Positions 16,294 to 31,399 of a DNA stretch of 52,813 bases are shown piece after piece. Under the pieces are notes generated by a model. It was given only the letters and a program-made list of their open reading frames with translations. It was not told the DNA's origin and did not search any database. The DNA is taken from contig JAKBBV010000016.1 of assembly GCA_021808285.1 (NCBI GenBank), positions 1 to 52,813 on the forward strand, written 5' to 3'. This DNA is from Pseudomonadota bacterium (lineage in GTDB: Bacteria > Pseudomonadota > Alphaproteobacteria > Caulobacterales > Caulobacteraceae). Numbering within the stretch: position 1 is the stretch's first letter; each line of letters starts with the position of its first letter. The position numbers and the translations under genes are program-made.

Positions 16294-16328
16294 CGCGAGA
16301 GCCGCGCGGCGCTCGCGCGAGGCGGCGC

Positions 16329-17069
16329 CTAGAGCTCCGAGGTGCGGTCGGAAGTCCCGTAGAAGATCTTCAGCGCCTGGTCCCGCGGCGTGTTCAGAGG
16401 AACGCAGGCGGGGGTGGTCACTCCCGCGGCCACCATGGGATGGAAATGAGGGTCCGGCGCGATCTGCAGGGGCTGCGCGATCTTCAGGGCTTGTCGCGTC
16501 CCGGAGACCATTCGGCCGTGCATGCTTTTGGCCTCCTGAAGAGTGAGAAGAAGTTCGGCCTGAAGGGTGGGGTTGTAAGGCGGATCGACTTCGAGAACCC
16601 GTAGCCGCGCCCACAAGGTGCGCTCCAGGATCTCGTTCTCGCGGAGGCTGTGGAAGAACATTTGCAACGTGCCGTATCTCGCCTGCTCGTCCGGCGACAG
16701 AAGGGCGATCCGCCCCGTGCTGGCGGCGGAGTCATAGGCCTGCAGGTCCAGAATGGGGGTCAGCGGACGGCCGATCCAGAGGGGCGATGGCAGCTTCGCG
16801 CCGGGCCGCCAGCCTAGAAGCAGGTTTTGAACCTGCGTGATGCGCGTGGTGACGCACGCGTCCGTCGACAGGGCGTGGCTGACCCAGTTCAGATTGGTCT
16901 GGGTGACCGCGCGCAGGGTCTCCCGCTCCTCCTGGGCGGTATGGCGTCGGTGCAGCCAGTCGACGCCCTGCTCCAGCGAGAGCGCGATCAGGATGCCGCA
17001 TATGATGGTCCCGATTTCGACGAGGAATTCGCGCCAGTTTCGCGCGGCTCTCGGCTTGTGAATGTCCAT
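16329..17069 (-). CDS. Single-pass membrane protein of unknown function
   Basis: 246 residues from the ATG at 17069, with GGAGAGGGCG just upstream. A short cytoplasmic N-terminus (MDIHKPRAARNWREFLVE) is followed by one hydrophobic helix (about 20-37, IGTIICGILIALSLEQ) and then a soluble, mainly helical domain. I associate the 'NWREFL.EIGTII.GILIAL.LEQ' opening with a common family of uncharacterised proteins in Caulobacterales and Sphingomonadales. No catalytic motif is visible. It stands alone between the DsbA-like gene (convergent) and a long gene-poor gap. Confidence 0.75.
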   Translation of the reverse strand: MDIHKPRAARNWREFLVEIGTIICGILIALSLEQGVDWLHRRHTAQEERETLRAVTQTNLNWVSHALSTDACVTTRITQVQNLLLGWRPGAKLPSPLWIGRPLTPILDLQAYDSAASTGRIALLSPDEQARYGTLQMFFHSLRENEILERTLWARLRVLEVDPPYNPTLQAELLLTLQEAKSMHGRMVSGTRQALKIAQPLQIAPDPHFHPMVAAGVTTPACVPLNTPRDQALKIFYGTSDRTSEL

Positions 17070-17577
17070 CGCGCCCTCTCCCGTCCCCACCAGAAGCCTC
17101 GGTTCGAAATCAAGGTCAAGTCGCGGGTCGAGACACCCGCGCGGGTCCCAGGGAGGACAGCGGCGGGCCGGGGCGCCCGGCGGGCGCGGCCGGGACCTTC
17201 ATCTCGCGATTTGAAAATTCACAGCAGAGTCCGGGTATGAAAATTCATCAATAAATACAGGTGCATAATCCGTGTTTACGGCTTTACTTATGCCAATATA
17301 AGTTGCCAGAATGGCCGCGGAACTGGCCGCATATCTGGTCACAAATGACCGCGGCCCTGGTCTCAAATGGCCGCCGGTCTGGCCGCGCTTGGCCACATCC
17401 TGGCCGCGTGCCAGGCCGCATCTTGGCGGAACGTCGCAGAGGTGGGGGGATATCGGATCGAACATGTGCGTCGGGAGAGGGCCCTCCCCGGGACGGGGCG
17501 GGAGGCGCGAATTATCACCCGGAACATTGCAATTTGGCAAGGACTAGGAACTGGCTGTCGCGCAGCGATCCAAGGGA
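17070..17577. other. 508-bp gene-free gap holding an AT-rich block and an 11-bp-periodic repeat array
   Basis: From left to right: GC-rich upstream region of the single-TM gene (17070-17205); an AT-rich block (about 17210-17300) with a 10-bp direct repeat TGAAAATTCA at 17212 and 17238; the periodic array (17303-17434); then a GC-rich tail with a palindrome-rich stretch near 17475-17505. No convincing open reading frame or RNA gene. Confidence 0.7.
17303..17434 (+). repeat. 11-bp-periodic degenerate tandem repeat, array A (consensus TGGYCRC + 4)
   Basis: The core TGG(C/T)C(G/A)C recurs with its first base at 17312, 17324, 17336, 17346, 17358, 17368, 17380, 17390, 17401, 17413 and 17424, spacings 10-12 and mean 11.2 bp. 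Units are degenerate but the core is clear in at least nine of eleven. The period is not a multiple of three, so it is not simple coding repetition. The unit TGGCCACATCC at 17390 recurs almost exactly in array B at 31366. Confidence 0.8.
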
Positions 17578-18651
17578 TCATCGCGCCGCCCGCGGCGGCA
17601 GGGCGGCCGCCGCCGCGCGCCAGGAGGCGGCGATGGAGTCGAGGGTGAGGTCCGGCTGGTCGAGGAGGCGCAGCGCTTTCTGCCGCACAAAGTCCGTCTC
17701 GTCCGGGTCGGAGAGGTAGGGCGCGGGCGAGCGGCCGTCCACGCGGGCGAGGAGCAGGGCGGCGAGCAGGGGCGCGGCGCGCGCCTCCAGGTCGCTGAGA
17801 GGCTCCCAGTCCACCCCGGCGGCATAGGTCTGCCGGAAGGCGGCGAAGGCCTGCGCCATCTTGTCCTGATGCTCCCGCACCCAGAGCGCTTTGAGCAGAA
17901 GGTGGCTCAGGCAGAAGGCGAGGTCGAAGGCCGGATCGCCGAACACTGCGGTTTCGGAGTCGAGAAAGACCGGGCCACGCGCGCCGACGAGGATGTTCTT
18001 GGGGCTTACATCGCCGTGGACGAGCGCGATGGCGCGGCGCCCGAGGCCGGCCGCCAGGCCTTCCAGCGCCTCGCGCGCCTGGGGATGTTGCTGGGCTGGA
18101 AAGAGGAGAAAGGGCTCCACGCGCAGGTCATGAAAGTACGAGCGATCGACGAAACGCTCCGTGATGTCTGGCCGGCCGGCAGTAGCGGCGTGGAGCCTGG
18201 AAAGAGCCCGGCCGACGGCGGCGGCAAAGTTCACATCGACCCGACCGGCGGCCAGCTCTGACTTCCAGACCGGATGAGAGACCGGGTCCAGGTAGGCCAT
18301 GACAAAGACGTGCGCGTCGGGGACCTCGAACACCACCTCCGGCGCCAGATCCCGGTCGATGTCTCGCGCGGCGCGCAGCCAGGCGACCTCATTGGAGACT
18401 CTGTCCGGCGAGGCGGTCCACAGCGCCTTGACCCGCATGCGAGGGATGGAGCGCTTGACCGCGAAGATGCGGCCATCGGCGAGTTCCAGGCGGAACACGT
18501 CCGAAGAGACCCCGCCGGCCAGGGGGGTGAGAGACCTCGTCTGGCCAGGGGCGATGAACCTCGCTGCGGTGAGGGCCGCGACGACGACCGCACTATCTCC
18601 CGCGTCGCTTTCGGCGCCGCGAGGCTCTGGACCGGTCTCAGGGGCGTTCAA
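17578..18651 (-). CDS. Phosphotransferase of the APH/choline-kinase-like superfamily
   Basis: 357 residues, starting at a TTG 3 bp after the stop of the upstream propeller gene. Kinase motifs are complete: nucleotide-loop GGVSSDVFRL (46-55), K66 in FAVKRS, Brenner motif VHGDVSPKNIL (211-221) with catalytic D214 and N219, and metal-binding D231 in FLDSETAVFGDPAFDLA. The layout matches aminoglycoside phosphotransferase/5-methylthioribose kinase-like small-molecule kinases. The substrate is unknown; most chromosomal members in environmental bacteria are not resistance enzymes. Co-transcription with a secreted YncE-like beta-propeller protein is almost certain from spacing. Confidence 0.85.
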   Translation of the reverse strand: MNAPETGPEPRGAESDAGDSAVVVAALTAARFIAPGQTRSLTPLAGGVSSDVFRLELADGRIFAVKRSIPRMRVKALWTASPDRVSNEVAWLRAARDIDRDLAPEVVFEVPDAHVFVMAYLDPVSHPVWKSELAAGRVDVNFAAAVGRALSRLHAATAGRPDITERFVDRSYFHDLRVEPFLLFPAQQHPQAREALEGLAAGLGRRAIALVHGDVSPKNILVGARGPVFLDSETAVFGDPAFDLAFCLSHLLLKALWVREHQDKMAQAFAAFRQTYAAGVDWEPLSDLEARAAPLLAALLLARVDGRSPAPYLSDPDETDFVRQKALRLLDQPDLTLDSIAASWRAAAAALPPRAAR

Positions 18652-31289: not shown

Positions 31290-31399
31290 CGGTCACATTT
31301 GGTAAGGTGGCGGGTCACAAAGGGTAACCTTCTGGTCACGTCCTGGGCGCGTATTGGCAACATCTTGGGCCACATCCTGGTCGCCTTCGGGATCGCCCT
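31290..31399 (+). repeat. 11-bp-periodic degenerate tandem repeat, array B
   Basis: The core TGG(T/G/C)C(A/G)C, with some slips, begins at 31290, 31300, about 31312, 31322, 31333, 31344, 31355, 31366, 31378 and 31389; between 31322 and 31366 the spacing is exactly 11 bp. Translation of the region shows the matching 11-residue period (GNLLVTSWARI then GNILGHILVAF), as expected of an 11-bp repeat read over 33 bases. An AT-rich block precedes it on the same side as in array A. Confidence 0.8.

Follow-up and report, generated by a model that had tools for sequence, protein, structure and literature searches.

Helically phased arrays of 11-bp units in a Caulobacteraceae genus as candidate docking sites for phage-type small terminases

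An array of short repeated cores in the window (the whole 52,813-nucleotide stretch of Caulobacteraceae DNA analysed here) is real, helically phased and non-coding, and it looks like a docking site for a protein that contacts many sites at once. We lean, with somewhat better than an even chance, towards its being the docking site of a ring of phage-type small terminase (TerS), and, as its most probable job, the packaging start of a domesticated P22-like system whose genes are now scattered. The features concerned, in window coordinates, are the following, where G000 is the window's genome and G001 a related one:

17312..17434, plus strand: phased array of ten TGGYCRC cores (at most one mismatch) and one weak unit, spacing 10-12 bp
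17205..17311, no strand: AT-rich block left of the array, 37% G+C in 100 bp
17435..17526, minus strand: spacer from the promoter-like palindrome to the array, a place occupied by a terS-like gene in gene-linked units
17527..17539, minus strand: degenerate TTGCANNNTGCAA palindrome, 8/10 positions, on the side matching other solo arrays; alone p ~0.05
16329..17090, minus strand: ORF of 253 aa, without Pfam or PHROG match and without tblastn match in the G001 stretch examined
17578..18651, minus strand: phosphotransferase gene (PF01636 APH), a host landmark gene, 3' end toward the array
16294..17577, no strand: interval comprising the 253-aa ORF, AT-rich block, array and palindrome, present in G000 and missing in G001

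The core search returned ten TGGYCRC cores with at most one mismatch at 17312-17423, 10-12 bp apart (starts 17312, 17324, 17336, 17346, 17358, 17368, 17380, 17390, 17401 and 17413; spacings 12, 12, 10, 12, 10, 12, 10, 11 and 12), and these starts reproduce the mean spacing of 11.2 bp given in the preliminary description of this DNA. The eleven units counted there are reached if a weak last unit with two mismatches (start 17424, reaching 17434) is admitted, while only ten remain at one mismatch or fewer; its start at 17303 has to be moved, since 17303-17311 holds no core with at most one mismatch and the array proper runs from 17312. The chain length of 10 compares with a maximum of 3 in 2000 dinucleotide shuffles of 17091-17577, so that the suspicion that shuffled sequence would give the same periodicity was not borne out; the longest core chain was also at most 3 in 60 whole-window shuffles, and 3 on the minus strand of the window. 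The core spacing is not a multiple of three and, as had been claimed, no gene covers the array, which lies in the gap between two minus-strand genes; mechanical ORFs do cross it. Elsewhere on the plus strand of the window five core-like words are chained (31333-31388), possibly by chance within coding sequence.

The gap holding the array measures 487 bp, between minus-strand genes at 16329-17090 and 17578-18651. The two neighbours tested, an APH-family gene and an ORF without Pfam match, agree with the earlier remark that no partition gene is nearby. The AT-rich block reported on the left is likewise present, G+C being 37% over the 100 bp next to the array on that side and 69% in the whole window, and at all 11 arrays read in G000 an AT-rich side (36-52% G+C) was found, always the same one. 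In G001 the alignment to a dsbA-like gene starts at most 60 bp from the phosphotransferase stop and the interval 16294..17577 is missing; around the other eight orthologs of the right-hand (phosphotransferase) gene either the neighbours or their order differ. The concern that the region might be part of a conserved coding gene in relatives could be judged in G001 only, where the whole interval is absent.

The initial picture of an unrecognised element without a partition neighbour stands but is incomplete, about eleven arrays being present in this genome and a family of them across the genus. Weak matches from a search of the window's own genome (2.9 Mb, 105 contigs) proved to be more arrays, and the pattern TGGYCRCN{3,5}TGGYCRC occurs there 28 times, against 5 for the reversed control. 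A chain script recovered nine arrays, on contigs C1, C14, C28, C42, C61, C73 (short), C86 (the window), C89 and C101, and two more were recognised by eye on C25 (gene-linked, degenerate) and C41 (four units), giving a total of about eleven in 2.9 Mb, or one per ~260 kb. With a three-core pattern, whose counts include overlapping matches within one array, the ratio of matches to control among 16 genus genomes was 26/0 in G000, 16/1 in G015, 10/0 in G012, 6/0 in G003 and 5/1 in G002, and the remaining 11 gave 0-3 matches versus 0-4 in the control. Several arrays sit at contig ends (G012:C15, G013:C64, G002:C15 and G000:C42), and array counts may therefore be lower bounds. On reading of the loci the arrays are intergenic. 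TGGTTGC tandem repeats were noticed next to long ORFs in G003 (C162 and C330; L147 and L148). Searched against 40 genomes (its own and 39 relatives), the intergenic DNA matched only the window itself and two short stretches elsewhere. In 149 family genomes the two-core pattern was too noisy, forward counts being close to control counts in most; in 30 loci from genera g2 and g7 (six genomes, forward matches outnumbering control matches in most) chains reached 5 cores at most, and those of the genus arrays L048, L053 and L055 reached 7-14.

Four arrays of G015, with 13 units each, have an identical spacing series (10, 11, 11, 11, 11, 11, 10, 12, 10, 11, 11, 10) and zero indels across 140 bp. Identity among the four is 0.88 in the cores, 0.52 in the linkers and 0.39 and 0.26 in the flanks, the GG and the last C of the core are unchanged in 52/52 units, and middle units are less conserved than outer ones.

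In five genomes (G000, G001, G003, G012 and G015) the end of a gene adjoins one array. The N-terminal region is common to all five encoded proteins, and each of them matched the PHROG terminase small subunit families phrog_11494 and phrog_51; a profile of 24 relatives retrieved the Pam5 small terminase structure 21di from the PDB (2.8e-22), and Pfam Terminase_2 was matched by two of the five, both below its cut-off. Sequence profiles place the array-linked protein in the phage TerS family, which takes the place of the ParR or ribbon-helix-helix protein first suggested by analogy. This TerS family was found in 12 of the 16 genus genomes (with 12 matches in G014) and, elsewhere in the Caulobacteraceae, in 4 of 283 genomes; at 13/13 loci the named records of the array-linked protein come from Caulobacteraceae MAGs, largely the same genomes as those studied here.

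A de novo scan of the genus, in which an array had to beat the best of 20 shuffles by a score margin above 0.7, placed a phased array directly 3' of the stop codon in 18 of 27 stand-alone terS genes and in 0/7 of the terL-linked ones. The 27 cannot be taken as independent cases, since L212/L213 and L179/L169 are close duplicates, and they include the truncated L220 and L221; the window array is a solo copy, whereas gene-linked arrays adjoin terS at these 18 genes. The gene count leaves out L219, L230 and L231 (contig ends) and several short or weak matches, and takes L201, L166 and L176 once, as L218, L212 and L213. No terL was present in 1.9-4.0 kb around any of the 27 stand-alone genes; it was present at 7/7 of the linked ones. 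The nine stand-alone genes without a 3' array by the scan include G000's own terS (C25), whose array is degenerate, and L215, L216, L217 and L224, TerS-like proteins with long C-terminal tails and 7-10/10 palindrome positions. By the same scan, 3' arrays were found at 0/2 diverged terS genes lacking a nearby terL (L222 and L228). In a separate comparison, phage or other-genus relatives had an array on the 3' side in 0/14 cases; L203 and L204, which seem to be of one phage type, have a three-unit chain 5' of terS (3.0 vs 2.0 in 8 shuffles).

Cores differ among paralogs (TGGC type, CCTGCC, ACCGCC, CGCGCC, CTTGCC and others), and solo arrays have a core in common with a terS of the same genome. 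In a protein tree of 43 rows (L220, L221, L222, L228, L204, L207 and L211 left out), core type and clade agree for the CGCGCC pair, the L175/L167 pair and four proteins of TGGC type; mismatches are L163, placed apart from the TGGC clade with a TGGC-type array, and CCTGCC, found in two places. Core type follows the TerS protein tree in part. Stand-alone and terL-linked groups are separate in this tree, with weak support for the stand-alone group (76/21).

The palindrome TTGCANNNTGCAA, usually with a TTGAC box, lies upstream of most stand-alone terS genes and of terL-linked terS, and 83 sites were found in the 16 genus genomes versus 8 for the reversed pattern. Twenty of the 83 sites were fetched: seven lead to a solo array (that of L262 being weak), two to a Cro/C1-type regulator and 11 to other genes. 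Of the 18 assessable TGGC-type solo arrays, 16 have at least 8/10 palindrome positions no more than 260 bp away on one fixed side (C73 and G015:C28 failed), against 0/19 on the other side, in a count that covered 19 solo and 5 gene-linked TGGC-type arrays, C42 not being assessable on the right, and that left out L136, L143 and L149 (contig ends) and L053, L147, L148 and L158 (other pattern). Since eight sites with at least 8/10 positions are spread across the whole window, the palindrome of the window is weak evidence when taken alone. The AT-rich block is on the array's far side in G000 and, by eye, between palindrome and array in the solo units of G005 and in most solo arrays of G002 and G003.

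At separate loci of G000 the palindrome lies upstream of the portal (9/10 positions), terL (9/10), the regulator (10/10) and, weakly, terS (7/10). The regulator matches Pfam HTH_3 and HTH_31, and its G001 counterpart is 85% identical. A palindrome between this divergent candidate regulator and a small protein was seen in G000:C19 (L260:732-1391) and G001:C25 (L266); the small protein, without Pfam match, looks like the C-terminus of GcrA. In G015 the palindrome also precedes nine small genes (C27, C35, C40, C42, C56, C61, C76, C82 and C84; loci L248-L251 and L254-L258), which by eye seem to form a single family, and a gene resembling them was seen upstream of terS-terL in G014:C24. Control by RogA was considered and rejected, the inverted repeat of C. 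crescentus RogA, GGAA-N4-TTCC (PMC9632790, in excerpt), being different from TTGCANNNTGCAA.

A TerL gene was detected in 14 of the 16 genus genomes, with a distant match only in G006 and partial ones in some, G009 among them. In G000 (contig C52) and G001 it has no terS or head genes nearby and is flanked by the same two neighbour genes (66% and 82% identical). Elsewhere in G001 a P22-type portal (PF16510, 4e-102) occurs with a Phage_capsid_3 head protein, and the G000 portal is 95% identical to it, with genes for capsid, virion, endolysin and tail-fibre proteins downstream on C15; a Doc-like toxin gene (phrog_577, 7e-21; L319:10396-10806, G000:C15) was noticed inside this portal-capsid cluster. 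G000 has one PF03237 terminase. Portal matches were obtained in 9 of the 16 genus genomes, each of the nine with terS-like genes, and the portal search gave no match in G002 and G012. Phage structural and packaging genes are hence kept in the chromosome across species, as expected of a gene transfer agent. Counting against packaging, G005, rated 100% complete, gave no match to TerL, portal or PF03237 and keeps arrays at two terS-like genes as well as five solo ones, one of them weak.

Binding of TerS to the arrays is likely. In the mechanism that we propose, a ring of TerS-like subunits, encoded on G000 contig C25, would dock on the window array with one core per helix-turn-helix domain of the predicted ring; spacing of about one turn would set the cores on one face, and ~120-140 bp could be wrapped round the ring. 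The array-bound TerS would then recruit the TerL motor, which would feed neighbouring chromosomal DNA into particles made from the P22-like portal, capsid and tail cluster, and the Cro/C1-type regulator would control the system; physical binding, wrapping, packaging of host DNA and this control are our predictions. Wrapping, if sequence-specific, needs cores spaced by one turn over 120-140 bp, which the array layout fits. In SF6-type small terminases the adjacent helix-turn-helix motifs of the ring are about one B-DNA turn apart, and wrapping of ~100 bp has been proposed, which may not apply to all pac phages (PMC4737164, in excerpt). Two published observations count against the proposal, namely the little sequence preference of the SF6 domain (PMC4737164, in excerpt) and the lack of an N-terminal DNA-binding domain in the TerS of the R. 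capsulatus gene transfer agent (PMC6854486, in excerpt). Packaging initiation would be the simplest job for the arrays, because the partner is a terminase subunit, because terL and the head cluster have been retained, both with this promoter-like element upstream, and because the pac site of SPP1 is located at its terS gene. The ~260 kb between arrays might be a distance that successive headfuls could span.

The arrays could also belong to selfish, satellite-like units (promoter, terS-like gene and array) that parasitise a helper phage or gene transfer agent, solo arrays being copies now without the gene, which packaging mobilises or maintains. We hold this to be unlikely, though deserving of attention: two G014 units have, by reading, the same gene and array in different flanks, the window unit is within the interval missing from G001, the terS family has 12 matches in G014, and islands that redirect helper-phage packaging are known (PMC6739421). 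On the other hand, reading of the ORF beginnings beside the units revealed neither an integrase nor a replication gene, and the 95% identity of the portals of G000 and G001, together with terL between the same neighbours in both, indicates vertical upkeep of the packaging genes. A TerS-like ring co-opted as regulator or chromosome organiser, silencing, bending or bridging DNA without packaging, seems less probable still. It would account for terS and arrays in G005 without detectable terL or portal, for the intergenic position of the arrays as read and for the AT-rich block near them in G000, but the orientation of arrays to neighbouring genes is inconsistent by reading, and terL and portal genes have the promoter-like element in common. 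The content of G005, combined with the mobile-element-like behaviour seen in the G014 flanks and the G001 gap, makes a satellite-like or a purely regulatory role possible.

The other explanations fare worse. The idea of an operator array was set aside as improbable, gene orientation beside the arrays being, by reading, mixed and without a consistent pattern; 11-bp operators of the PhoB/OmpR type would lie upstream of the regulated gene. That the promoter-like element transcribes the array and a protein ring binds the repeated motif in RNA is very improbable: by eye the TTGAC box and palindrome are directed at many solo arrays, yet the compensating 12/10 spacings preserve helix phase, which is relevant to duplex DNA, and the helix-turn-helix domain of TerS proteins binds DNA (PMC4737164, in excerpt). 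A centromere or operator of the ParR or other ribbon-helix-helix type has only the ~11-bp unit length in common with the arrays and can hardly be credited against a TerS-like array-linked gene in five genomes, two window neighbours without a partition gene and about eleven arrays per genome. Neutral decay of a minisatellite, which the degenerate units might recall, is given practically no weight in view of the identical spacing in four diverged copies, cores much more conserved than linkers and a palindrome on a fixed side.

The proposed TerS docking at packaging starts has several known counterparts. As at the pac sites of headful phages with helix-turn-helix small terminases (SPP1/SF6 and P22), the protein here is of the TerS family, and the SPP1 pac too contains direct repeats, overlapping the beginning of terS (PMC4737164, in excerpt). 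Unlike those sites, up to 13 strictly phased units lie 3' of stand-alone terS genes, paralogs have different cores, and solo copies occur chromosome-wide. The gene transfer agents RcGTA and CcGTA also have phage-derived structural and terminase genes in the chromosome; unlike in them, the portal is P22-type, the head is Phage_capsid_3 and the loci are separate. The head type of RcGTA differs from Phage_capsid_3, and TerS here has, by sequence, a predicted N-terminal DNA-binding region that sets it apart from RcGTA. SaPI and EcCICFT073 are phage-inducible chromosomal islands that redirect packaging. The likeness to such islands would be packaging redirected by a chromosomal element (PMC6739421), and the difference is the many solo arrays and that no island genes were noticed in the ORF beginnings read. 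Pseudo-pac sites of P22 in the Salmonella chromosome are chromosomal headful start points, as the arrays would be; they are pac look-alikes with a 12-bp consensus region (PMC11226127, in excerpt), in contrast to the long arrays of conserved layout found here. The closest annotated phage portal (44%) is that of Pseudanabaena phage Pam1 and the closest solved TerS (21di) that of Pseudanabaena phage Pam5, both of them independent phages. TerS, pac sites, gene transfer agents and packaging-redirecting islands are known parts, and their present combination was not found in the literature searched: stand-alone TerS paralogs, many with their own phased array, together with chromosome-wide solo arrays. 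No description of stand-alone terS genes with phased arrays appeared in the titles or abstract openings covered by that search.

How TerS chooses its DNA, and whether the DNA wraps round the ring, are unsettled in the excerpted literature (PMC4737164), and the many natural TerS-array pairs of this genus, with differing cores and fixed spacing, are suited to direct binding tests. More broadly, and more tentatively, a P22-like phage may have been turned into a scattered host system with programmed starts of chromosomal packing and duplicated TerS adaptors, many of them with their own phased 11-bp code, an idea to which we give a little less than an even chance. If true, the array layout would record the DNA wrapped around the small-terminase ring, and, with about eleven arrays in 2.9 Mb, headful series beginning at them could reach a large part of the chromosome. 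If packaging does begin at the arrays, these bacteria would transfer genes from programmed sites, in contrast to the R. capsulatus agent, whose packaging is described as random (PMC6854486, in excerpt).
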